Positions 2,790 through 57,347 of a stretch of 64,000 bases of DNA are shown piece after piece. The DNA comes from Fibrobacter sp. (lineage in GTDB: Bacteria > Fibrobacterota > Fibrobacteria > Fibrobacterales > Fibrobacteraceae), in the NCBI GenBank assembly GCA_024398995.1, contig JAKSIE010000006.1, forward strand, positions 1-64,000, written 5' to 3'. Each line of letters opens with the position of its first letter. Within the stretch, counting starts at the first letter, position 1. The notes under the pieces were generated by a model. That model saw only the letters and a program-made list of their open reading frames with translations. It did not search any database and had not been told where the DNA came from. The position numbers were made by a program, and so were the translations under genes.

Positions 2790-4375
2790 AAAAGTTTTCA
2801 GTAATTAGCGAACTTGTCTTGTTCTGCTGCGCCTCTCTTGCACTGGTGGGTTGTACAGCGGATCCTCAGACTGCTGGCGTCAGCACCGTGGAAACGGAAA
2901 ACGCCTTGGTCATCCAGGTGACTGACGGTAGTGCGCCTGCGAAGGGTGTTCTTGCCCGAGTGCGTTCGGCTCGTTATTTGCAGAATGTTGATAACAAACC
3001 TTACGCAGAAAGTGATGGGGTGGCTGCTGAATACACTGCCGATTCCAAGGGTTTCGTGTATATCACGAAAAAGGAAATTTCCAGTTTGAAGCTTGCCGAA
3101 ATTTCTGTTGAAGTGGTTGGTGAAAAACAGGGCGCCTTTGGGATTTTTGCATTGGACGGATCTGAGGAAACTGCTCCGGATTCTGCAACTTTGGCTCTTG
3201 AAAAATTTGGTTCCTTGAAGGGGCATGTGACTTTTGCTGAAGGTGATACTACAGCGGAAGTTCGCATTTACGGAACGGATCGAATTGTCTCCACGGACTC
3301 CGAAGGAAACTTTGAAATCAATGACCTTCCGCCTTATGCGCACTACACCTTGATGGTAGGCTCCAGTTACAATACTGTCGTAGAAATGGAGGCGGGAGTG
3401 TTTGCGGAAAAGACAAAGGATGTAGGTGAAATCGTCCTTAAAAAATATGTCCTTTATGATGATATGTTGATGATTTCTGATTGGATGAAAGTTGCCAAGG
3501 CTGCTCGCCAGGAAGGCGAACCGGTGGTGGGTTTCATTCGGTTGAATTCCAAGAATTTTGACTTTAGCGATGCCATGGCTCAGGGTAAGGATGTTCAAGT
3601 TGAAACTGACGATAGTGATCCCATGACTTACGCCATTAACTACTGGAACGACTCTCTTGAACAGGCTGAAATCCTGGTGTTGCTGGATGCAAAAACGGAG
3701 CTCGTTAAGTTGACTTGGGGCATGGGCGCTGTGGACGAAAAGTCTGCAAAGAAGGTGACCTCTTCAAAGTTGTGGGAATCTGTTTCTGCAGAAGTGGCCC
3801 GTGAACAAAATTCCGTTAGCCTCATTGATTTTGAAAATGGATTCAAGTCCAATGTGACTGCTCCTGCCGCGGTGTTTGACTGGTATTTTGAATACCAGGG
3901 TGATTCCGTAGAAACCACCCCAGGTTTGGACAATGCGATTGAAGGCGTAGAATCTGCAGGTGCTGACCGCGATGGCAAGGCTTTCCACTGGAAATCGAAA
4001 TCTCCCAATGGTAGCTGGTCCTATGTGGGCCTCTGGCTTAGCTCGGCAAAGAAACCCAGTAACTTCCAGGCCATTGATTCTGTGGAATTCATGGTTCGTG
4101 GCGAGGGCCGCATTGCCTTTGCCTTCGAGTCCGAAGACACTACAGGATATGTTAGCAAGGCCTTTAACTTTGATACCCTCAAGACGGAATCCAGCGAATG
4201 GGTTCGCAAGGTTATCAAGCAAAGCGATTTCGTGGAAGGCACTGGCGCCTATGCCAATATTGGTTGGGACGTTATCCAGACTCGGGTTACTAACTTCAAT
4301 ATTGCGGCCTATGGTGAAGCTGAATTCTGGCTGGACGACATCAAGTTCTATGGTGTAAATCTGGACGACCTATAA
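2786..4375 (+). CDS. Lipoprotein with carboxypeptidase-regulatory-like and C-terminal carbohydrate-binding-like domains
   Basis: 529 residues. The lipoprotein signal ends LALVGC with lipid Cys23. Residues about 30-220 contain beta-sandwich repeats of the carboxypeptidase regulatory-like type (SLKGHVTFAEGD, then DSEGNFEINDLPPYAHYTL). Residues about 335-525 resemble the CBM11/CIA30 galactose-binding-like fold: it starts SLIDFENG and ends EFWLDDIKFYG, the common pattern of that fold. GGGAGG precedes the ATG, which sits inside the stop of the TIGR02147 gene, indicating translational coupling. I infer a surface or periplasmic carbohydrate-binding lipoprotein working with its upstream regulator. 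No catalytic motif seen. Confidence 0.82.
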   Translation: MKKFSVISELVLFCCASLALVGCTADPQTAGVSTVETENALVIQVTDGSAPAKGVLARVRSARYLQNVDNKPYAESDGVAAEYTADSKGFVYITKKEISSLKLAEISVEVVGEKQGAFGIFALDGSEETAPDSATLALEKFGSLKGHVTFAEGDTTAEVRIYGTDRIVSTDSEGNFEINDLPPYAHYTLMVGSSYNTVVEMEAGVFAEKTKDVGEIVLKKYVLYDDMLMISDWMKVAKAARQEGEPVVGFIRLNSKNFDFSDAMAQGKDVQVETDDSDPMTYAINYWNDSLEQAEILVLLDAKTELVKLTWGMGAVDEKSAKKVTSSKLWESVSAEVAREQNSVSLIDFENGFKSNVTAPAAVFDWYFEYQGDSVETTPGLDNAIEGVESAGADRDGKAFHWKSKSPNGSWSYVGLWLSSAKKPSNFQAIDSVEFMVRGEGRIAFAFESEDTTGYVSKAFNFDTLKTESSEWVRKVIKQSDFVEGTGAYANIGWDVIQTRVTNFNIAAYGEAEFWLDDIKFYGVNLDDL

Positions 4376-4410
4376 TTTTGTATATTGCGCCACGTACAAA
4401 GGAATAAGCT

Positions 4411-5217
4411 ATGGCTGAAATTCAATCTGTTTGCGTCGGCGAAGTGGAAATGGAATACGCCCGCTTTGGTAGCGGTGCAAAGATTTTCGTGATTATTCCG
4501 GGTCTTAGTCTCCGTAGTGTAATGGTTTCTGCGTCTTCTGTAGAAACTGCCTACAAGATTTTTAAGGAAGACTATACCGTTTACCTTTTTGACCGCCGCA
4601 AGAATATGCCTGCGGTGTATTCAGTCGCGGAAATGGCGAGGGATACTGCCGCTGCCATGAAGGCCTTGGGCCTTGAACATGCGGATATTTTGGGAACGTC
4701 TCAAGGTGGCATGATTGCCCAGCATATTGCCATCGAAAATCCGGAATTGGTAAACCGTCTGGTGCTGGCCTCCAGTTCTTCAAAGGCGGAACCCCTTCAG
4801 CTTTCTGTCATCGGGAACTGGGCAGCTCTTGCCCGCGCCGGCCGTTCTGAAGATTTGGTGGGCGACTTTATTGATAACGCTTTCACACCTTCTTTTGTGC
4901 AACGTTATCGCCGCGCGCTCTTGATGATGTACAAGAACCTGACAGCCGAGGAACTGCTGCGATTTGCAATTACAGCAGAGGCTTGTGCCGGCATTGACAC
5001 CTACGACAATCTCCATAAGATCCAGTGCCCCACCTTTGTAATCGGCGCGGCTCTTGACCATGTGGTAACCTACGAAGCCTCCGTCAAAATTGCAGAAAAG
5101 CTGAAATCTGCAGGCGCGCCTTGCGAATTCTTCACCTATGAAGAAAATGGCCACGCCGTATTCGACGAGGCCAAGGACTATAAGGAAAGAATTTTGGATT
5201 TCTTGCGCCGCATTTAG
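4411..5217 (+). CDS. Alpha/beta-fold hydrolase
   Basis: 268 residues, no signal peptide, so cytoplasmic. The catalytic triad is readable: nucleophile elbow GTSQGG with Ser97, an acid at about Asp216 (GAALDH), and His248 in ENGHAVFD. The oxyanion strand is FVIIPGLSL near residue 30. The overall pattern matches small esterases and C-C hydrolases of the alpha/beta-hydrolase superfamily. The substrate is unknown. It lies 35 bp after the lipoprotein gene on the same strand, so it may share its transcript. The region around the stop codon is duplicated (5203-5243). Confidence 0.88.
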   Translation: MAEIQSVCVGEVEMEYARFGSGAKIFVIIPGLSLRSVMVSASSVETAYKIFKEDYTVYLFDRRKNMPAVYSVAEMARDTAAAMKALGLEHADILGTSQGGMIAQHIAIENPELVNRLVLASSSSKAEPLQLSVIGNWAALARAGRSEDLVGDFIDNAFTPSFVQRYRRALLMMYKNLTAEELLRFAITAEACAGIDTYDNLHKIQCPTFVIGAALDHVVTYEASVKIAEKLKSAGAPCEFFTYEENGHAVFDEAKDYKERILDFLRRI

Positions 5218-5243
5218 ATTGAATTTTTGCGCCACATTTAGAT
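5203..5243 (+). repeat. Imperfect direct repeat spanning a stop codon
   Basis: A 17-bp unit ttgcgccgcatttagat at 5203-5219 recurs at 5227-5243 with one change, a 24-bp period. The first copy encodes the last residues and stop of the alpha/beta hydrolase; the second lies just after it. Confidence 0.75.
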
Positions 5244-5255
5244 GAGGGTGCTGGC

Positions 5256-6476
5256 CTAGTCGGTAACTTCGTCCATGGTTTGCTTGATTTTGTCCTTCAT
5301 GCTAAGGAACACGTCTGCCAGAATGGGCTCGAAGTCTGTTCCCTTGCCCTTTTCAATAATCTGGAAGCATTCTGGCAGAGGGATGGGGTCGCGATAGCAG
5401 CGTTTTTGTGAAATTGCGTCAAATACGTCGGCTACAGCCATGATGCGAGCTGCCAACGGAATTTCAGTTTTGGAACGGCCTTCGGGGTAGCCCTTGCCAT
5501 TCCATTTTTCATGGTGGTAACGAGCCACTTCGTAAACCATCTGACGGTAATTATCGTCGCCGATGTGGGAGAACGTCTGCTTGATAATCTTGCCGCCTTG
5601 TTCCGCATGGCTCTTCATGATTGCGAATTCTTCGTCGGTCAACTTACCCGGTTTCTGCAAAATGTAGTCCGGGATGGACATTTTGCCGATGTCATGCATA
5701 GGAGCTGCGTTGGTCAAGTTGCTGATGAATTCAAGATCGATGATTTCCGGATAAACTTTGCGTTTGAACAATTCCTTGGAAAGAATTTCCACGTAGCGGC
5801 TAGTGCGCTTGACATGACCACCTGTGTTTTCGTCACGGTTTTCAACCAGATTTGCAAAACCGAGAACGATGTCCTGGTTCAGTTCCTTGATTTTGTTGGT
5901 GTTGTTAATCTGCTTGTCTAAAAGTGCTGTGGTTCTACTGGAAAGGAAGTAGAGCAAGTAGCCAAGGCTGCACAAGGTAAGTGCTCTAGGTAAAACGCTG
6001 AAGAGTACCAGTCGTTTCAATACCAGGAAGTTCTGGTCCGGAACAAAATTGCCGTAGAATCCTGCGAACTGCCCCAAGGTTGACATGATCATGGTCATGA
6101 TGAGAGCGTAAAGCGTGATTTTTTTTGAAAAATAGAGGCTTGCGATGGCAATGGGAAATGCGTAAATGACTGTTGCGTGAAAAGTAAGGGTTGTCTGGAG
6201 GTTGAATAAGAACAAACTAATCAAGAAAACGTAAATGTACTTGAGTTTCGGATTTGACGGATTGAAAATCTTGTTCAGCAACCAAGGACTTAAAAGAATT
6301 ACAGCTCCGATTAAATAAGCTGTGGTCATCACCTTCTGGTCGATGATGAAAATGTGGAGTAGATTTAAAATGTAGATGAAAGAAAAGATGCCGAGAGTAA
6401 TCGACAGCGCTTTGGCAACTGTTTTATTAGCGTCAGCTTCATTCTGACGTAATAGAAAATGATCACGTTGACCCAT
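5256..6476 (-). CDS. HD-GYP domain protein with N-terminal membrane region
   Basis: 406 residues from ATG 6476, preferred because GAGG lies six bases upstream; GTG 6488 in the same frame is an alternative. About residues 20-185 hold roughly five or six hydrophobic helices of an uncharacterised membrane sensor. The rest is an HD-GYP phosphodiesterase domain: ENRDENTGGHVKRTS near 213-226, the metal-binding HDIGK near 261-265, HHEKWNGKGYPEG near 321-333, and a second DVFDA motif. HD-GYP enzymes hydrolyse cyclic dinucleotides, chiefly cyclic di-GMP. The GYP and HD residues are intact, so activity is likely. No GGDEF domain is fused. Confidence 0.9.
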   Translation of the reverse strand: MGQRDHFLLRQNEADANKTVAKALSITLGIFSFIYILNLLHIFIIDQKVMTTAYLIGAVILLSPWLLNKIFNPSNPKLKYIYVFLISLFLFNLQTTLTFHATVIYAFPIAIASLYFSKKITLYALIMTMIMSTLGQFAGFYGNFVPDQNFLVLKRLVLFSVLPRALTLCSLGYLLYFLSSRTTALLDKQINNTNKIKELNQDIVLGFANLVENRDENTGGHVKRTSRYVEILSKELFKRKVYPEIIDLEFISNLTNAAPMHDIGKMSIPDYILQKPGKLTDEEFAIMKSHAEQGGKIIKQTFSHIGDDNYRQMVYEVARYHHEKWNGKGYPEGRSKTEIPLAARIMAVADVFDAISQKRCYRDPIPLPECFQIIEKGKGTDFEPILADVFLSMKDKIKQTMDEVTD

Positions 6477-6547
6477 ACATAACCTCACATTCTATTACAA
6501 AATAATAAAATAAATGAAGGTCTTTGAAATGTCTTTCTAAAAGGTTC

Positions 6548-7708
6548 CTATTTCAGGAGAGTCTCTGGTACGCATTCCGCCATAGCTTCGTATGCCTTGG
6601 CACTGGGATGTAAGTGGTCTCCGGAGTCGAATCCGGTGGCGAATTTTTTCGGGTCGGCAGGATCTTGGACGGCTTTGTCAAAGTCTACACAACCATCGAA
6701 CTTTTCTGAATTACGAAGCCATTCGTTGAATTCGTTGCGGATGACGTCGCGATTTTCATTATAGGTTCTCCAGCCGAAAATGGGAAGCAGGGTTCCACTC
6801 CAAACATTAAGTCCTAGAGAACGGGCGTGTTCAATATACAGTTTTTCTACACTGTCGATTAAGTCCTGGGTGGTGGGCATGTCGCTCCAAGGACGGAACG
6901 GATTGACTTCAGATCCCACTGGATGGATTATGTCGTTGATGCCGTGCTGGATGATAACGGACTTTGCTCCCGCAACATTCAATTCAATAGGAAAACGGGT
7001 GGCTCCCTTCAAACCGTAGGCGGCGTAGGTAATGCAATCGTACTGGCGGAGAATTCTTGTTCCGCTAACGGCCCTTCGGATAATTGATACGTTGCTGAAA
7101 CCTTCCTTTTCTGCGCGAAGGCTCAGGTAGTCGGGCCAATCCTGTGCGGTAATGGAATCACCGTAGCAGACTAGGGCGAAGTTCTTTTCTTCAGTGAAAA
7201 CGTCCACTGTATTCAAGAAATAGAACCAGTTGGTGTTTCGGGTCAAATTGGCGGGTAATTCGTCGTTTGCGGCGAAGTTGCCGTAGCTGAACTTTCCAGA
7301 AGAAAGGGGACCTGTAATTAACGTGCCTGCATTCATCTGGGTGAAGTCTGCGAAGTAGAGGCTTACATCGAGGGTTTCTCCAGCGACTATGTCGAGATTA
7401 ACTTCATCGCTGAGAATTTCCTGGCCCGCAGGGATGGCGCCTTCAACCTTTCCGTTGAATGTTATGGAAATGGGGGTGTAAGCCAGGTTCTTGCCTTTTT
7501 TTGCCACAAGGGCCTGGCTAATGGTTACAGGTTCTGTTCCTGTCAGGTTGGAAAAGTGGAAACGTAGTTTGCTTCCGTTAAAGCACATGCGAATGGGGTA
7601 GCGTAAGGTCAGGTCCTTGGCATACACCGCTTCCTTGCGATCGGTAATGGAGGTTGCATTTCCCCAGCAGGCGACCCATTTTGTGAATTGCTTACCCGTT
7701 GCGCTCAT
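6548..7708 (-). CDS. SGNH/GDSL-family hydrolase
   Basis: 386 residues. An N-terminal beta-sandwich-like region (about 1-170) precedes an SGNH hydrolase domain with block I GDSITAQ (Ser185), an Asn block HGINDI near 262, and C-terminal DHLHP giving Asp364 and His367. The family includes carbohydrate esterases, lipases and acyl-transferring enzymes. No signal peptide is evident, so an intracellular esterase, for example deacylation of imported oligosaccharides, is possible but inferred. It lies between the HD-GYP gene and the metallo-beta-lactamase-fold gene on the same strand. Confidence 0.88.
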   Translation of the reverse strand: MSATGKQFTKWVACWGNATSITDRKEAVYAKDLTLRYPIRMCFNGSKLRFHFSNLTGTEPVTISQALVAKKGKNLAYTPISITFNGKVEGAIPAGQEILSDEVNLDIVAGETLDVSLYFADFTQMNAGTLITGPLSSGKFSYGNFAANDELPANLTRNTNWFYFLNTVDVFTEEKNFALVCYGDSITAQDWPDYLSLRAEKEGFSNVSIIRRAVSGTRILRQYDCITYAAYGLKGATRFPIELNVAGAKSVIIQHGINDIIHPVGSEVNPFRPWSDMPTTQDLIDSVEKLYIEHARSLGLNVWSGTLLPIFGWRTYNENRDVIRNEFNEWLRNSEKFDGCVDFDKAVQDPADPKKFATGFDSGDHLHPSAKAYEAMAECVPETLLK

Positions 7709-7742
7709 TCTTCGCTTCCTTTTAGCTGTAAAACTTGAATTG

Positions 7743-8627
7743 TTACTCGGCGAATCCCGGACTGGGCAAATGCATACCGGCCATAGTCAAACCGTTGGCT
7801 TTTGCGTATTCCAAAATGCGCTTGCGGCTTTCGATGGATTTTGCCTTGTCCATATCGTAGTTGGAATTTACTTCGGGATGGTTGATCTGCAGGGCGTAAC
7901 CGTGCATCAGATCACCGATGACCAAAAGTTCGTTGTAACGGAAAACGGTGTGGCCTGGGGTGTGGCCGATAGCGTCAATGGCTTCCACGGCATGGGGGAG
8001 GGTGTCGCCAAAATTGAACAGGCTCAACTTGTCGCCATATACGCCGAGAATAGCCTTTTGCAGGTCATTCTTCTCTATGTTCATCCAGGCGTCGTGTTCA
8101 ACTTTGCCCAGGAACAAGGTGGCGTTCTTGAAAACCTTTTCCATTCCGGCATCTGTCTTTTTTACCAGTCCGGAAATGTGGTCCACGTGAAGGTGGGTCA
8201 GGTACACCAGCTTGATGTCGTCGGGATTAACTCCCAATTCATTCAGGTGGGTTGCCATCTGGCCGCCAAAATCACCCAGGCCTGCATCAAAAAGAACGTA
8301 TTCTCCGTCTACCTTCAGCAGGAAGGTGCTAACGGAAGCTGGAATGCCATCGGCAAGACCAACGCTGTTGTAAAGGGAGTCGCTGGCGTCGCTGAAAAGT
8401 TCGCGAGGGTTCAGTTTGTTGCCTGCGTTGTCCTTAATCCAGGTGACGGTAGCGCCGGACTTGAGTGTTACGGTCTTGTATTCCGAGGATTCCGTCGCAT
8501 TCTTTACGGTTTCTGTAGAAACGTTCTTTGTGGATGCATTGTCTGCCGAGGCCTTTTCAGAAGCTGTGCAGCCAAAGAAAAGAGATACCGTAACTATAGG
8601 TAGAGCAAGTTTAGTAAAAATATTCAT
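7743..8627 (-). CDS. Metallo-beta-lactamase-fold hydrolase, lipoprotein
   Basis: 294 residues with a lipoprotein signal ending LFFGC (lipid Cys20). The zinc-binding motif HLHVDH is at residues 145-150, with a further ligand region HTPGHTVF near 222-229 and GDLMHG near 237. The pattern fits the MBL-fold lactonase/hydrolase group. A Ser/Thr/Ala-rich spacer of about 30 residues follows the lipid anchor. It is probably an envelope-anchored hydrolase; substrate unknown. The gene ends 34 bp before the start of the SGNH gene on the minus strand, so co-transcription is likely. Confidence 0.88.
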   Translation of the reverse strand: MNIFTKLALPIVTVSLFFGCTASEKASADNASTKNVSTETVKNATESSEYKTVTLKSGATVTWIKDNAGNKLNPRELFSDASDSLYNSVGLADGIPASVSTFLLKVDGEYVLFDAGLGDFGGQMATHLNELGVNPDDIKLVYLTHLHVDHISGLVKKTDAGMEKVFKNATLFLGKVEHDAWMNIEKNDLQKAILGVYGDKLSLFNFGDTLPHAVEAIDAIGHTPGHTVFRYNELLVIGDLMHGYALQINHPEVNSNYDMDKAKSIESRKRILEYAKANGLTMAGMHLPSPGFAE

Positions 8628-8665
8628 GGAATCCTCTTTAGTTTGTTCTACCTTAAGTTAGCAAT

Positions 8666-11119
8666 TTATATTGCAAAGCCCATGCGCCTGCCTTCGTGAT
8701 CGTCCTTGCAAGCAACTTCATTTTGAAGTTCCTTGACGATTCGTTGGTCGGTAACGTCCTTTTCGTTCAGGAATCGGAGCTGCCCGTAGACAGCATTGAA
8801 ATCGCCGGGAGCGAGATTGCGGATTTTGCACGCCGCCTCCGGACATTCAATCTTCGGGAAGAACAAGTTCCACACCTGGGGAATGGCTTCGGGCTTCAGG
8901 TAGCCGAACTTCACCTTCAAAGCAAAGCGGCGGCGGGATGCCTGGTCCAGATTGTCGTTGAAATTGGTGGCGGCAATAAAAATACCGTTGAAGTTTTCCA
9001 TTTGGGTAAGAATTTCATTCACCTGGGAAACTTCCCAGCCACGGCTGGCTCCGCGACGGTCGCGAATCAAACTGTCGGCTTCGTCCAGGAACAGGATTGC
9101 CTCTTGCTCTTCTGCTTCCTGGAACATCTGGCGGATGTTCTTTTCGCTTTCGCCAACGTACTTGTCCAGCAAATCGCTGCAGCGCTTGATGATGAGCTTA
9201 CGACCAAGTTCGCGGGCGATGTGACGGGCAAATTCGGTCTTGCCAGTACCAGGCGCTCCATAAAGCAGAATGTTCAAGGAGTCCGGACGGTCCCCCTCCT
9301 CAAAGGTCTGCCACTTGGCGTCGTAATTGCGAATGACTTTATTCAAGTGGACCATATCCACGTCGGTATTCAAAATGTCGATGGAGTACTTTGGTGCATG
9401 ACTTTCGGTATCGCGCTTGTTGAACTCCAGTTCCAAGCCAAGAAGCTCCGCCTGGGCCTTGGTCATCCTCTGCACCACGTCTTTAGGGTCCAATTTGGAT
9501 CCTGCTTTTTTCAAGGCCTTGGCAGTGCGAATAGCCTGGGTAATACCGCCTGCAGTGACGGGAATTTCGCCAGACAACTTTTCAATAGTTGCTTCGTCCA
9601 AAAGGTTTCCGGCCTTTTGGGTCTTGATGATGGATTTCCAGATGTTGATACGTCGGGAACTGTCAAGACGGTCGAACTTCACAGAGAAATCAAAACGTCT
9701 CAAGGAACTTGCTTCGATGTATTCTGTATTGTTGGAAATCCAAATGATGGGTGTTTCCAGCTTTTCAAGGAAGGTGTTGAGCGTTCCCTTTTCGCAGCTG
9801 TTCAGGATGTAGTCGGCTTCGTCGACAAGGATAATCACATCCTCCTTTCGGAAGGTGTAGCTAGCCAGGAGAATTCCGCTCATTTTTTCGCGGACCATGT
9901 TGCTGAAGGGATTGTCCTTATTGTCGCCGGTGTTATCCAGGTTAGTAAGGATAAGTTTTTTGTTAAGCTTTTGAGCAATGGCCTTGGAAAGTTCGGTCTT
10001 GCCGGTTCCTTCGACACCATAAAGGAAAATGTTCAGGGGCGTACCCTTTTTGTGGTGGGTAAGCATTTCCACAAGAAGATCCGTATCCGGGTTATTGCCT
10101 TGCAGCTGTTCGTAGGAGATGGCGGATCCCTTGTAAGTCTGGAAATTGCTTTCGCTGTAGTTGGCTCCGGATCGTCCGCTAAGATAATGAACAACTTTAG
10201 TAAGAAGGTTTAACTCATCGTCGATGAGCATCATACGGCGAAGGGTTGCGTTAGGGTCAAGGATTGCATCTATGTCGTTTTGGGATACCCCGCAGATCAT
10301 CTGGAAAAGGGCCGCGTTGTTGGCGGGTTTTTGATGGTTCAATCGCAAGAAGTCTACCAGGTCATCGCACTGCTTTTCGTAAAAGAAAATCCAGGAAAAA
10401 ATCAGAAATTCCAGTTCCACATCTGTGAGCTGGTAAATCTTTTGGATGGATTTGATACGCTGGAGATAAGGATCCTTGTTGGCGGATGCCTCGGAAATAA
10501 GCCTGATAGCTTCGTTGATGAACTGCTGTTGAAGGGTGCTGCAGACCAGCTTATCATAGATGGTTTCGCGGTCAAGATGCTGATGTACGGTACTTACCAC
10601 CTGGTCCATGTGGCCGGATTCGGTGGCGCACTGAAGATCGATGCAGGCGCTCTTTCGGTTATGATATTCCGTAGAAGCCAAATCCTCCAGTTCGTCCTTG
10701 GGGGCGTCTTGATGAGACCTGCTGTTGCGCGGCTTGACTTTGCGTCCGTCGATGAGGTCAAGAAAGTCAAAATCGTCAAATTCGCTGAAATCGGCCTTGT
10801 CGGCGCAACGGGAACTCGCAACATTGTGTTGTCTGCTGTTGGCGACGTCAATCGCGTTTCTCCCGCGCTTTTTTATCTGGATGATTTCGCGGGAGTTTTC
10901 CTCTTTGAGTACAGTTTGAACAGCGTCAATGATTGTCGTGACGGAGTCAAAGGGGAGAATTTTGATGAATTCAGAAGGGCAGGGGTAGTTATTGTTGTTT
11001 CTAAGAAAGCGAATCCAGTATTCGTAGGCCTTAAGTTCGGGAAATTTGGGCTTGGAAACGCAAGCCTTTTTTCTTTTGTTCAACTGGTCAATGATATTCT
11101 TGTAGTAGTTCTTGCTCAC
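8666..11119 (-). CDS. AAA+ ATPase with two AAA domains
   Basis: 817 residues from GTG 11119, chosen because GGAGAG lies about five bases upstream; an unsupported TTG at 11173 would add 18 residues. The N-terminal third has no recognised domain. AAA domain 1 has Walker A GVEGTGKT near 368-375, Walker B VIILVDEAD and an arginine-finger-like SLRRFDF. AAA domain 2 has Walker A GAPGTGKT near 621-628, Walker B ILFLDEAD and SRRRFAL. Both look competent. The arrangement resembles classical remodelling ATPases, but I cannot name a substrate. It is divergent from batA; Bat proteins usually pair with MoxR AAA+ ATPases, and no moxR is present here. Confidence 0.88.
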   Translation of the reverse strand: MSKNYYKNIIDQLNKRKKACVSKPKFPELKAYEYWIRFLRNNNNYPCPSEFIKILPFDSVTTIIDAVQTVLKEENSREIIQIKKRGRNAIDVANSRQHNVASSRCADKADFSEFDDFDFLDLIDGRKVKPRNSRSHQDAPKDELEDLASTEYHNRKSACIDLQCATESGHMDQVVSTVHQHLDRETIYDKLVCSTLQQQFINEAIRLISEASANKDPYLQRIKSIQKIYQLTDVELEFLIFSWIFFYEKQCDDLVDFLRLNHQKPANNAALFQMICGVSQNDIDAILDPNATLRRMMLIDDELNLLTKVVHYLSGRSGANYSESNFQTYKGSAISYEQLQGNNPDTDLLVEMLTHHKKGTPLNIFLYGVEGTGKTELSKAIAQKLNKKLILTNLDNTGDNKDNPFSNMVREKMSGILLASYTFRKEDVIILVDEADYILNSCEKGTLNTFLEKLETPIIWISNNTEYIEASSLRRFDFSVKFDRLDSSRRINIWKSIIKTQKAGNLLDEATIEKLSGEIPVTAGGITQAIRTAKALKKAGSKLDPKDVVQRMTKAQAELLGLELEFNKRDTESHAPKYSIDILNTDVDMVHLNKVIRNYDAKWQTFEEGDRPDSLNILLYGAPGTGKTEFARHIARELGRKLIIKRCSDLLDKYVGESEKNIRQMFQEAEEQEAILFLDEADSLIRDRRGASRGWEVSQVNEILTQMENFNGIFIAATNFNDNLDQASRRRFALKVKFGYLKPEAIPQVWNLFFPKIECPEAACKIRNLAPGDFNAVYGQLRFLNEKDVTDQRIVKELQNEVACKDDHEGRRMGFAI

Positions 11120-11289
11120 GGGCTCTCTCCAAAAATCCTTCTGTATATCGCTTCCGTTGTTCAGTTCTGTCAATTTTTTTTTGAGAAAACCTTAGATTGG
11201 TCTTTTTTTGCGGTTTTTCGTAAATTTTGCCCAGTTCATAAATTGTATATTCTTATTGTTTCTGTCGAATTACCGTTTTTGGAGTATTC

Positions 11290-12393
11290 ATGGATATTGG
11301 ATCGTTGCATTTTCAGAACCCGGAGGCTTTTTGGCTCCTGCTTTTGGTTCCCGTTCTGATTGCCTCATACATATACAGGAATCGTCGTCGTAAGAGTACT
11401 ATTAAGTTCCCCGCCCTGGCCATTGCCAAAAAGGCTGCCCCCAGCAGTAGGGTTCGTTTTCGTCATATTGTTCCGGCACTCCGCCTAGCCGCTCTGTGCT
11501 GCTTCGTGGTTGCCTTGGCGCGCCCCCAGAACGCTATGGAAGTGGAATACACTTCTACCGATGGCGTCGATATTATGTTGGCCTTGGATATTTCTGGTTC
11601 CATGGGAACCCTGGATATGTTGACTCGTGCCGAACAGGCTAAGCTTGGCGTGATGAATGCCGAACGTATGCTCAAGTCGGGCAACTACTGGAAGTATAGC
11701 CGCCTGGGTTACGCCCAGGAAGTCATTGCTGAATTCATTCAGAAACGTCATAGCGACCGTATCGGTCTTTCTGCCTTTGGTTCCCGCTCCATGACCCAGT
11801 GTCCTTTGACCTTGGATTACGGTTCTCTCCTTGAGATTCTTAAGGCGTCCGGCGATTTGGCCCGCGATTCCGTTTACGCCTCCCAGACGGCAATCGGTGA
11901 TGGCTTGATGAACGCTTTGGCCCGTTTGCAAAAGTCCGAGGCAAAGTCCAAGGTGGTGGTCCTTTTGACCGACGGTCGCGACAATGCAAGCCTTGTTCCT
12001 CCTATGCGTGCCGCCGAAGTGGCCCAGTCCCTGGGGGTTAAGGTTTACACCATCGGCGTGGGCAAAAAGAAGGGTAAGATTCTTTCTTTTCAGCAGAATC
12101 CCTGGACCGGAGAAATCTCCTGGGGCGAACGTGAAATCACTCCCGAAGAAGGCATCGACGAAAATGTGCTGAATGCCATTGCCCTTAAGACCGGTGGCCG
12201 TTTCTACCGCGCCGAAAACAAGGAAGAATTGGAACGTATCTACTCTCAGATTGATGAACTCGAAAAGACCGAAATCGAGACCATTGCCTATGCCCGCTAT
12301 GCCGAGAAATTCTATCCCTGGCTGCTAGCTGGTGCCCTCCTGATTTTGCTTGAACTGTTGCTTGCCAACACCCGCTTCGTGAGGATTCCGTAA
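11290..12393 (+). CDS. batA: BatA-like VWA-domain membrane protein
   Basis: 367 residues. An N-terminal membrane anchor (about 13-30, then 60-78) precedes a von Willebrand factor A domain with a complete MIDAS site, DISGS (Asp100, Ser102, Ser104), a later TxxG Thr region and LLTDGRDN. A C-terminal helix is at about 344-362. This is the BatA arrangement of the Bacteroides aerotolerance proteins. The VWA domain carries an insertion of about 35 residues right after MIDAS (LTRAEQAKLGVMNAERMLKSG). GGAG lies upstream of the ATG. The stop overlaps the next gene (TAATG). Confidence 0.88.
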   Translation: MDIGSLHFQNPEAFWLLLLVPVLIASYIYRNRRRKSTIKFPALAIAKKAAPSSRVRFRHIVPALRLAALCCFVVALARPQNAMEVEYTSTDGVDIMLALDISGSMGTLDMLTRAEQAKLGVMNAERMLKSGNYWKYSRLGYAQEVIAEFIQKRHSDRIGLSAFGSRSMTQCPLTLDYGSLLEILKASGDLARDSVYASQTAIGDGLMNALARLQKSEAKSKVVVLLTDGRDNASLVPPMRAAEVAQSLGVKVYTIGVGKKKGKILSFQQNPWTGEISWGEREITPEEGIDENVLNAIALKTGGRFYRAENKEELERIYSQIDELEKTEIETIAYARYAEKFYPWLLAGALLILLELLLANTRFVRIP

Positions 12394-13421
12394 TGCGCTT
12401 TGCTGAACCGACTTTCTTGTGGGGCCTTCTTTCCCTTCCGCTTTTTGCATTGCTGTTCCTGTATGCGTACCGCCGTCGTAAAAAGTTGGCTGCCCGATTT
12501 GTTTCCCTTTCCATGTTGCCTAAGCTGTCCACCTCCGTGTCTCCCTGGCGTCGACTGGCAAAGGTTTTGATTCTCCTTTTGTCCATTGCATTCTTGTTCG
12601 TTGCCTTGGCACGCCCCCAGTGGGGCCGCAAGATGGAACATATTGAGCGTAAGGGCTTGGACCTGGTGCTTTTGCAGGATATTTCCCTTTCTATGCTTGC
12701 CGAGGATATTAAGCCGAACCGTTTAACTCGTAGCCGTCACGAAATTTCCGCCTTCCTGGAATCCCTTTCTGGTGACCGTGTGGGCCTGGTGGCTTTCTCC
12801 GGCGAAGCTCAGGTCATGGTGCCTCTGACTTTGGATTACGGTACGGTGCAGATGATGCTTCGCGAACTTACTCCGGGTTGGCTCATGCCCGGCACGAACC
12901 TTGAAAATGCCATCCGTAAGGGCATGGCACTGTACCAGAATTCTGGAAGTGGCGGCCAGTATGCTGTAATGATCCTTATGAGTGATGGTGAAGAACTGGA
13001 AGCCGCTGCGGTCAATGCCGCCAAGGAGGCTGCAGCCCTTGGCATTCGTATTTACACCATCGGTATCGGTTCCCGCGAAGGCGTGCCTATTCCGGTTCCC
13101 TCCAAGAACGGAAGTGTCGCTTACAAGAAGGACGCTCAGGGTAATATTGTGACTACCCGCCTTGAGGACGGAACCCTGCAGGAGATTGCCAGCGTAACCG
13201 GAGGTTTGTACTTCTATGCTAGCCCAGGTGAATTCCAGCTCCAGAAGGTGCTGAACGAAATCGCCACCCTTGAAAAGAAGGAACAAGCCAGCGACCGAAT
13301 GGAAAATTACCAGGATCGCTACCAGATCTTCCTAGGATTGGCAGCTTTCCTCTTCTTGTTGGAGGCATTAATCTCCGAAAGAGGCCGTCGCCGCAAGCAA
13401 GTTGCCGGACGATTTAATTAA
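12393..13421 (+). CDS. batB: BatB-like VWA-domain membrane protein
   Basis: 342 residues. Two N-terminal helices (about 8-26 and 55-73) flank a short cytoplasmic loop, then a VWA domain with MIDAS DISLS (Asp96, Ser98, Ser100), followed by the BatB-typical PNRLTRSRHEIS, and a helix near the C-terminus (IFLGLAAFLFLLEALI). It overlaps batA by one base, so the two are translated together. BatA and BatB are thought to form a periplasm-facing complex in envelope stress or aerotolerance; the true function is unresolved. The partners batD and batE lie more than 40 kb away in this window. Confidence 0.88.
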   Translation: MRFAEPTFLWGLLSLPLFALLFLYAYRRRKKLAARFVSLSMLPKLSTSVSPWRRLAKVLILLLSIAFLFVALARPQWGRKMEHIERKGLDLVLLQDISLSMLAEDIKPNRLTRSRHEISAFLESLSGDRVGLVAFSGEAQVMVPLTLDYGTVQMMLRELTPGWLMPGTNLENAIRKGMALYQNSGSGGQYAVMILMSDGEELEAAAVNAAKEAAALGIRIYTIGIGSREGVPIPVPSKNGSVAYKKDAQGNIVTTRLEDGTLQEIASVTGGLYFYASPGEFQLQKVLNEIATLEKKEQASDRMENYQDRYQIFLGLAAFLFLLEALISERGRRRKQVAGRFN

Positions 13422-13598
13422 AATTTTGCTACAATTTTTCTAGGTGTGACAAAATTGGGCTTTTTCTACCCGAAAATGACCGATTTTGGGGATGAGTTAG
13501 GTTCTTGTTCAACCTTTTTTACACAAAATTGGCGAAATTCGTCCAAATTTTAAAGTAAATTATGGTTGGAAGTGTTTTTTTTCTAAAACGGAGACCTT

Positions 13599-14282
13599 AT
13601 GCTCGACCTATTAGCGGTACAGTCTGGTACTGCCAACGCATCCTTTATCACTTTGGCCTACACTCTTATTTTGGCCTTCATCCTTTCTTCCGTCATTGCA
13701 TGGACGTACGAAAAGACTTTCTTGGGTCTTTCTTACTCTAGAAACTTTGTTCAGGGCATCGTGCTCAGCTCTGTTGTGGCTGCCATGGTGATGTCTGCAA
13801 TCGGCGATAACGTGGGCCGCGGCCTTGGTATGATGGGCGCACTTTCTGTGGTCCGTTTCCGTACAAGCTTTAAGGACCCCCGCGATATCATGTTCATCTT
13901 CGCCTCTCTGGGCGCCGGTATCGGTTGCGGTGTTTATGCCTGGGGCGCAGCCCTCGGTGGTACCATTGCGTTCTGCCTGGTTGCCTTCTTGATTTCTCGT
14001 ACCGGTCTCGGAACCAAGCACTTCTTCGATGGTATGCTTCGTTTTGCTTTGAACAACGAACCTGAAACTCGTCAGAAGATCGAGGATGTCCTTCGAAAAA
14101 GTCTAAAAACGTATATCCTAATTACGATGCGAGAGGTGGATGGTGGCGCCCGTGTGGATTGCGCTTACCAGGTCCGTCTCCGTGCCACCAAGCCTGCAGC
14201 AGAAATCCTTAAGGAACTGTCTCAGATCGAAGGCATTTCTGATATTTCCTTTATGATGCAAGACGCCACCACCGAAATGTAA
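13599..14282 (+). CDS. DUF4956 membrane protein
   Basis: 227 residues. Four hydrophobic helices (about 15-38, 50-70, 100-120, 122-140) carry the DUF4956 signature: GLGMMGALSVVRFRTSFKDP after the second helix, then FASLGAGIGCGVYAWG. A cytoplasmic C-terminal domain of about 75 residues resembles an ACT-like fold (ILITMREVDGG... ISDISFMMQD). GGAG precedes the ATG. DUF4956 genes often lie next to VTC-domain polyphosphate polymerase genes, as here. It is the first gene of a five-gene run to 19252. Biochemical role unknown. Confidence 0.88.
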   Translation: MLDLLAVQSGTANASFITLAYTLILAFILSSVIAWTYEKTFLGLSYSRNFVQGIVLSSVVAAMVMSAIGDNVGRGLGMMGALSVVRFRTSFKDPRDIMFIFASLGAGIGCGVYAWGAALGGTIAFCLVAFLISRTGLGTKHFFDGMLRFALNNEPETRQKIEDVLRKSLKTYILITMREVDGGARVDCAYQVRLRATKPAAEILKELSQIEGISDISFMMQDATTEM

Positions 14283-55174: not shown

Positions 55175-56992
55175 CTATTTCAAATCGCCAAGGTTTTCGC
55201 AGAGGCTTTCGACGTCCTTCAGCATTTTCTTTTGTTCTTCGGCAGAGGGGTTTACCGGAGCGAATCTTGCAAATGCGCATTTCTCAAGCCAGCTATCGAT
55301 GGCGGAAATGGTTTCTGCGGAAACGCCGCGTTTTTCCAGTTCCTGTTTCATTTGCGGGCGGGTCATGCCCTTGAATTCGGCGTTGGTCAAATCGCTCAGG
55401 TAGTCCACCAGACCGTTTTCCAGTGCGGCGTAGAGAGCCTTGGCGTCGCCCTTGGCTAGTGCTGCGTTTGCGTTGGCAAAACGAGCCTTAAGCTGCTTAT
55501 TGGCCTTGCCCTTGCGGACCAGGGCTACGTTGTTGCTGTTCTTTCTCTTGCGGAATACTGCGAAAGTGATGATGAAGTAGAAGGGGATGGTGGCCAGCAA
55601 GGCGACCCAGTACCAAATGGTCTTGTAGGGAACCGGCTTGTCAGTTGCGCCCTTCATGCTATGAATAAAGCGGATGTCGCTACCCAGGGACTCGATTTCC
55701 TGCTTCTTGACGGCGGCAGGGCCAGCGGCTGCCACGGGAGTTTGGAATACGGATTCAGCGGAATTGTCGCCCTTTTCAACAACGATGTTCCAGGGGCCGG
55801 CCACTGCAGTTTCGTATTTCTTTTTGCTGGGATTGAACCAAGAGTACTTGATTTCGGGAATGGTGAATTCGCCCTTCTTTTTAGGATAGAGGAACACCTT
55901 GATATTCTTGGTGGTCACCACCTTGTTTCCGGAAATCTTCTTGGAAATATTGTTCTCGGGAGGTACGGAGCGGAAGTCACTAAAGTCGGGGAGCTTGGGG
56001 TCGGAAATGGAACCCGGCAAACCGTCACCCTTGATAGTGATGGCAAGAGTCATAGCTTCGCCCACTTTCAATTCTGTTCGGTCGAATTCAGCCTTGAAAC
56101 TGTAGTTGCCAACCATGCGGTCGAAGTCCTCGGGCTTGCCTTCGGTGGGCAGGGGCTTGACGTTAAGAGTAATGGGCTGTGTGGCGGCTTCTGCTTCCAC
56201 GGACTCTTGACGGACGCTGCGGCTGGAGAAGGACATGCCGCCCATCTGCTTTTTCTCTTCTACAACCTTGGGCTCGCCGCGCTTGGTGTACTTGAACTTG
56301 AAGGGCGGAACTTGCAGGGTGCCGTTCTTTGTAGGGCTGAACCAGGCGTACTTTATGCTTGCCTGCATTTCGCGAACTGCGTTTTCCACAGGCTCAAACT
56401 TCAGGTTGGTCATGTCGTTGCGATGAACGATAAAGTCGTCGCCAGTATTCATGTCTGTGGCCTGCAGGTTTCCTTCGAAGTTTTCGTAGGTGTGGAAACC
56501 TAAGGTTACAGAAATCTGTTCGCCTTCATAGATATTTGTCTTGGACGGTTTCAAAGTTACGTCTAGGGCGGAGTCGTCGTAGGATCTTTGGATGGTCGCG
56601 TAAATCTCGTTTGCGATAACGCGCTTTTGCTCGTCGATGACCATGGTGATTTGGCCCACGTTGAATCGGCCTGTTTTTTTCGGGGCTTTCAAATTGAATG
56701 TGTAGATTCGGGCCTTGTAGCTGGAATGGTTTCTGCCGCCAAAGAAAGACTCGAACATATCGTCAAAACCGGGACGGATCATTTGGTCCGTACTGTCGAT
56801 ACTGACGAGAGAAAAACCGTTTTGAGCAACAAGGTTAATTTCACCACGGTTTTCGGGTAATTCTTGCAAGGGGAAAATCAGCTGAAGGGCAAGACGCTTG
56901 CCGACTTCGATTCGCTCTGTGGCGAACTGGAGTGACGGACGGGCGCTTGCAAAAATCGCCAAGGCTAGGCAAAGGAACAAAACTCGTTTCAT
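55175..56992 (-). CDS. batD: BatD-like oxygen-tolerance protein
   Basis: 605 residues. A signal peptide ends FASARP near residue 18. The large periplasmic region shows repeated beta domains with the BatD pattern: IEVGKRLALQLIFPL, INLVAQNGFSLV, YEGEQISVTLGF and a later FDRTELKVGEAMTLAITIKGDG. One membrane helix is at about 460-480, followed by a short cytoplasmic tail. BatD genes usually lie with batA, batB and batE; here it joins only batE, with a 14-bp gap. Confidence 0.9.
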   Translation of the reverse strand: MKRVLFLCLALAIFASARPSLQFATERIEVGKRLALQLIFPLQELPENRGEINLVAQNGFSLVSIDSTDQMIRPGFDDMFESFFGGRNHSSYKARIYTFNLKAPKKTGRFNVGQITMVIDEQKRVIANEIYATIQRSYDDSALDVTLKPSKTNIYEGEQISVTLGFHTYENFEGNLQATDMNTGDDFIVHRNDMTNLKFEPVENAVREMQASIKYAWFSPTKNGTLQVPPFKFKYTKRGEPKVVEEKKQMGGMSFSSRSVRQESVEAEAATQPITLNVKPLPTEGKPEDFDRMVGNYSFKAEFDRTELKVGEAMTLAITIKGDGLPGSISDPKLPDFSDFRSVPPENNISKKISGNKVVTTKNIKVFLYPKKKGEFTIPEIKYSWFNPSKKKYETAVAGPWNIVVEKGDNSAESVFQTPVAAAGPAAVKKQEIESLGSDIRFIHSMKGATDKPVPYKTIWYWVALLATIPFYFIITFAVFRKRKNSNNVALVRKGKANKQLKARFANANAALAKGDAKALYAALENGLVDYLSDLTNAEFKGMTRPQMKQELEKRGVSAETISAIDSWLEKCAFARFAPVNPSAEEQKKMLKDVESLCENLGDLK

Positions 56993-57120
56993 AATGCCAA
57001 AATTACCAAATTTTACCGAGAGAAATGGACAAATGCCGCCGAATTAGGCCCGTAAGGTAAAGATGCAAGAAAATGTAATGTTCATTAAGAAAAATTTTCG
57101 TTTTTATAACTTATTTTCCC

Positions 57121-57149
57121 TTGAAACGTTAGTAAAAATTTGTTAATAT
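57121..57149 (+). promoter_or_regulatory. Predicted promoter of the tiny 57189 gene
   Basis: TTGAAA at 57121-57126, a 17-bp spacer and TAATAT at 57144-57149, close to the sigma-70 consensus. The predicted start of transcription near 57156 leaves a leader of about 33 nt. Confidence 0.65.
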
Positions 57150-57188
57150 TGGCGCCGTTGTAATAGAAGTCACAAAGAAGGAGTGAAT

Positions 57189-57251
57189 ATGTACTGTCTG
57201 CTTGCTTATCTGATCGTAAAACAAATCAAGGCTGGAAAGGCTCTGATCTAA
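57189..57251 (+). CDS. Tiny 20-codon gene, putative small peptide
   Basis: Twenty codons MYCLLAYLIVKQIKAGKALI then TAA. The hydrophobic first half and cationic second half would suit a membrane-active or membrane-associated peptide. Shine-Dalgarno AAGGAG lies eight bases before ATG 57189. It has a near-consensus promoter at 57121-57149 and two terminators within 100 bp downstream, so it is a self-contained transcript in the 361-bp gap between batD and mqnC. Alternatives: leader peptide of a small RNA, or an unexpressed chance ORF. Too short to confirm without expression or conservation data. Confidence 0.55.
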   Translation: MYCLLAYLIVKQIKAGKALI

Positions 57252-57280
57252 GAAAAACGATTCGACAAAGGCTGAAAGAA

Positions 57281-57347
57281 GAAGGCGACCTGATGAAGGC
57301 CGCCTTGATTTTTTTAGGGGGGGGCACCTGAAATGGGTGTTTTTTTT
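57281..57347 (+). terminator. Tandem terminators after the tiny gene
   Basis: First hairpin AAGGCG...CGCCTT (57282-57306) with an internal mismatch, followed by T7. A second, weaker CACCT/GGGTG hairpin (57325-57339) is followed by T8. A G8 run lies between them. Confidence 0.75.

Follow-up and report, generated by a model that had tools for sequence, protein, structure and literature searches.

Sequence evidence for an overlooked 20-codon protein gene, conserved beside batD in the genus Fibrobacter

Between batD and mqnC, in a genome of Fibrobacter sp., lies a complete small transcription unit whose 20-codon open reading frame is, to judge from its pattern of substitution across the genus, a real protein-coding gene that annotation programs have skipped. 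We read it as a stand-alone gene whose product is a small regulatory protein, specific to the genus and associated with the membrane, an interpretation to which its sequence leads us to assign a probability of roughly one half. Fibrobacter species are main cellulose degraders in the rumen. A protein of 20 residues that is under genus-wide selection, and is served by its own promoter, falls below ordinary annotation length limits, and its gene would escape standard transcript, proteome and knockout studies. The peptide is short enough for synthesis and offers a clean way to test what such lineage-specific micro-proteins are capable of.

The window – the whole stretch of 64,000 nucleotides that was analysed – carries the unit on its forward strand at positions 57121-57316, where promoter, ribosome-binding site, reading frame and terminator follow one another. 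A -33 TTG (57121-57123) and a -7 box, TAATATTG (57144-57151), are separated by a 20-base spacer that includes the conserved GTTAGTAAAA, the whole forming a Bacteroidetes-like promoter, TTG-N20-TAATATTG, at 57121-57151. The Shine-Dalgarno site AAGGAG (57178-57183) precedes a reading frame (57189-57251) that opens with ATG at 57189, encodes MYCLLAYLIVKQIKAGKALI and ends with TAA at 57249-57251. Downstream is an intrinsic terminator (57282-57316) of the form AAGGCGACC-TGATGAA-GGCCGCCTT, the hairpin of which (57282-57306) is followed by a run of T. An earlier note, made on this DNA alone, had proposed just such a unit, and every element that it named is present. The flanking genes were also correctly named: BatD is confirmed by Pfam family PF13584, and MqnC by the Radical SAM and CofH_C families of Pfam, its best NCBIfam match, TIGR03699, falling slightly below the cut-off.

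A central issue is whether the unit exists beyond this one genome. When relatives were first searched at the DNA level, the promoter region turned up in 22 of 36 same-genus genomes, a further match, in G036, being spurious, and the sequence 3′ of the matched promoters was a 20-codon reading frame starting MYC. A degenerate codon pattern then matched 67 of the 80 genomes of the genus, counting the window's own, and one further copy, with I8 replacing L8, was found in G021. All told, homologues of the form MYC[IL]LAxL[LI][VI]K..., 18-21 residues long, are present in 68 of the 80 Fibrobacter genomes (about 85%), some of which are incomplete, absence being firm in the near-complete ones only; these 68 genomes hold 83 copies. 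Given that 68 of 80 genomes carry the unit and that the reversed control pattern had no match in the same 80, its occurrence is far beyond chance. The earlier suspicion that standard gene callers would miss a gene here is borne out.

The 88 other Fibrobacterota genomes searched, 31 of them from the same family, yielded no homologue. A scan of some 85,000 species, one genome each, returned 45 matching records, 44 of them from Fibrobacter or Fibrobacterales (several under the name F. succinogenes). In the sole other record, from Sphingobacterium, the promoter is missing, and we regard that match as due to chance. Among the genomes searched the 20-residue protein is thus, on these matches, restricted to the genus Fibrobacter. 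A search of the literature on small proteins or small RNAs of Fibrobacter found nothing.

Evidence that the entity under selection is the protein comes from the distribution of substitutions among codons. In 66 genomes with a usable batD, pN/pS was 0.27 in the frame of the ORF, 1.08 and 1.63 in the other two frames and 0.30 in batD; these are pairwise counts uncorrected for shared ancestry, the out-of-frame controls having the same ancestry. The corresponding rates were pS 0.48 and pN 0.13 for the ORF, pS 0.63 and pN 0.19 for batD: that pN lies below that of batD while synonymous sites diverge supports the small-protein reading. Neither is the DNA of the ORF merely frozen, because its fourfold sites also differ (for example, an identity of 0.59 where that of batD is 0.45), although it is somewhat more conserved than batD. 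The comparison of codons that the earlier note had called for thus came out positive: purifying selection acts on this frame, at the level of the protein. Frameshifts and stops, which would have told against the proposal, are absent from the first 18 codons of all 83 copies – a set collected with a pattern to which the first codons are essential, so that broken copies could escape it – and the length of the ORF is held at 18-21 codons. Residues M1, Y2, C3, L5, A6, L8 and K11 are invariant across 62 distinct 20-codon sequences. The translation initiation signal, a mark of protein-coding small ORFs, is conserved too: a Shine-Dalgarno-like 4-mer stands at -18 to -4 in 81 of the 83 units, against 35% in shuffles.

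The promoter is equally well conserved, but is not of the kind first supposed. The pair TTGAAA (57121-57126) and TAATAT (57144-57149) had been taken for sigma-70-like boxes; the presence of a promoter stands, but its type does not. TTG-N20-TAnnWTTG, with a gap of always exactly 20 bases and a spacer in which GTTAGTAAAA is likewise conserved, occurs in 81 of the 83 homologous units, where shuffles would lead one to expect 0.9, and the window's promoter is better read as Bacteroidetes-type. Bacteroides promoters are reported to comprise a -33 TTTG and a -7 TAnnTTTG (PMC7366714), and the likeness to such sigma-ABfr promoters is plain in the motif; the Fibrobacter units differ in the conservation of the spacer and in that either A or T is allowed before the TTG of the -7 box. 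The possibility that this promoter with its spacer defines a regulon was rejected: in six genomes, allowing up to three mismatches, no second copy was found, the site occurring only at the 20-codon gene.

In the peptide, a hydrophobic stretch of 9-10 residues (YCILAALLV) is followed by a cationic tail, with a net charge of +3 to +6 across homologues, and this layout – already remarked on in the earlier note – is kept despite variable C-terminal residues. The stretch is too short for a normal membrane-spanning helix, and helical amphipathicity is not significant, being equalled by 10-17% of shuffled peptides for the main forms and by more for the others. Searches with the 20-mer at E up to 10 matched no family in Pfam or NCBIfam and no chain in the PDB, short queries being hard for such tools. 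Known small membrane proteins bind and tune membrane partners, and a comparable role can be envisaged here. Transcription from the Bacteroidetes-type promoter would give a short monocistronic mRNA of about 160 nt; the N-terminal half of its product, which is hydrophobic, would dip into the cytoplasmic membrane at its inner leaflet, and the C-terminal half, rich in Lys and Arg, would remain on the cytoplasmic side against the anionic lipid heads. Insertion at the surface is proposed because the stretch is too short to cross the membrane and its amphipathicity does not exceed that of shuffles. In that position the peptide could serve as a small regulatory subunit, binding and tuning a putative membrane partner, with the invariant Met-Tyr-Cys start and Lys11 as candidate contact residues. 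The shortness of the hydrophobic stretch and the non-significant amphipathicity count against this reading, as does the clean absence of the gene from certain near-complete genomes.

The genomic setting bears on both the age of the gene and its importance. The unit is nearly always divergent from batD, which adjoins it in 67 of 68 loci, the remaining locus being cut by a contig end. In 41 of the 68 loci the downstream gene, at most about 1 kb away and on the opposite strand, is mqnC; elsewhere other genes take its place. A functional need for linkage to batD was considered and rejected, the linkage being broken in two genomes besides the 68 (G074 and G075) that contain a relocated, diverged form, MYCLIAALVIMNQKKRFRKSRA; that this relocated copy retains both peptide and promoter core supports the small-protein reading. 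In G036, G066, G076 and G078 batD is adjacent to mqnC and the unit is absent; three of these genomes (G036, G066 and G078) are near-complete, and because the absence there is clean the unit is evidently dispensable. On a batD tree – midpoint-rooted, with three rows of divergent batD alignments on a long branch – the genomes without the unit are nested among carriers and need 3 changes, against 8.6 in shuffles. Read from this tree, the gene is likely to be an old one that was later lost, rather than a late gain. Fifteen genomes have two tandem copies of the unit, and the gene 3′ of the second copy is presumably malQ, from its appearance; TATATTTG stands a few bases before the ATG of this gene.

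Although the data favour a protein, the transcript might also have a function of its own. The most plausible rival is a dual-function RNA, in which the mRNA encodes the peptide while a single-stranded CUCUCUC before the terminator pairs with other mRNAs at their ribosome-binding sites. CTCTCT is indeed found 11-30 nt after the stop codon, before the terminator, in 49 of the 83 units, whereas outside units CTCTCTC occurs just 16 times in 348 kb (both strands), with a T run following only once; moreover, the stretch is predicted to be unpaired when folded with its terminator. In VcdRP and SgrS, too, the ORF comes first and the pairing part is distal (PMC8672173). The unit resembles VcdP of VcdRP and AzuC of AzuCR in being a short monocistronic transcript with a very short upstream ORF and, close to the terminator, a segment that may pair (PMC8672173), but VcdP has 29 residues, not 20, and no relation in sequence is claimed. 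The CU motif is, however, missing from the window's clade of five, from second tandem copies and from some others: what is constant across the genus is the peptide and not the RNA motif. Furthermore, Hfq was not found in six Fibrobacter genomes, a control search being positive in E. coli and others. We therefore regard this explanation as unlikely. As for known RNAs, Rfam gave no match above its gathering scores at the unit (the best were 20.6 against 41 and 15.3 against 42, the sub-threshold suhB and STnc250 scores being treated as chance), and ARAGORN found no known RNA there. A composite, in which the transcript of about 160 nt combines two functions, both conserved – it encodes a membrane regulator of 20 residues and, in most lineages, doubles as an Hfq-free CU-repeat RNA that controls other mRNAs – would on sequence grounds seem quite unlikely; if true, the gene would be among the shortest stand-alone protein genes retained across a whole genus.

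A membrane-active type I toxin, which damages the membrane once its RNA antitoxin is lost, had been among the possibilities first raised, and its standing has weakened to the point where we find it improbable. Membrane-associated type I toxins are shorter than 60 residues with cationic residues at the C-terminus (PMC8309996), and the Fibrobacter peptide shares with IbsC, AapA1 and LdrD (PMC8309996) its size class, its hydrophobic segment and its cationic C-terminal residues; the tandem copies in one lineage would also fit. Unlike those systems, however, the unit has no conserved cis antisense promoter, a Bacteroidetes-type antisense site occurring in 2 of the 83 units against 3.8 in shuffles; its hydrophobic core is short; and its stable vertical inheritance, genus-wide and at one locus, is not what such modules usually show. 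Nor is the mRNA predicted to be unusually structured: the fold of the whole transcript has z = -0.97, and that of a relative's transcript minus its terminator z = +1.05. An exported peptide, acting on other cells as a signal or antimicrobial, is a very improbable reading: a cationic, hydrophobic peptide of 20 residues under selection would be suited to such a role, but the sequence shows neither signal peptide nor leader, nor is any gene for an exporter, a protease or immunity conserved alongside, the neighbours being batD and variable genes. Lastly, a short ORF followed by a terminator suggests a leader peptide or an attenuator acting on the gene downstream, but this reading has next to no probability: which gene lies downstream differs from one member of the genus to another, and in the window nothing follows on the same strand, as the earlier note had recognized.

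The terminator, like the promoter and the Shine-Dalgarno site, is conserved. A hairpin and T run are present in 79 of the 83 units, the terminator is nearly identical in the five genomes of the window's clade, and folded with the 3′ UTR it has z = -2.7. Two tandem terminators had been described, and the window does contain both, but only the first is conserved: the second – a hairpin at 57325-57339 with eight T residues, together 57325-57347 – is specific to the window's genome and was not found in its four closest relatives (L083, L086, L087 and L088). Immediately 5′ of this second hairpin is a run of eight G residues (57317-57324), the length of which could differ among strains.

Several further features of the locus deserve mention. 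On the minus strand, at 56992-57030 in the window, a TAnnWTT box precedes batD, and in 58 of 75 loci 5-6 nt separate its end from the start codon; a box so near the start codon means that the batD mRNA is probably leaderless. At three loci (L093, L103 and L114) the BatD-like match beside the unit is only 37-49% identical to BatD of the window and sits on a very long branch: from its sequence this neighbour may be a divergent or a replaced BatD. Two loci (L006 and L007) contain a second small ORF with AAGGAG about 170-200 bases past the first, beginning MEEKKEYVAPEMKVVDMEYQSMLCA and resembling a peptide precursor. Finally, in the one matching IMG/VR contig (L214) an apparent integrase-bearing element of about 11 kb lies between batD and two tandem units, at about 2970-13700. 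That the unit in this contig is a phage gene was rejected, the contig, with batD together with an integrase-like ORF, being read as a Fibrobacter chromosome that flanks an inserted element; the arrangement, as read from the contig, suggests that the intergenic site beside batD is also an insertion site.
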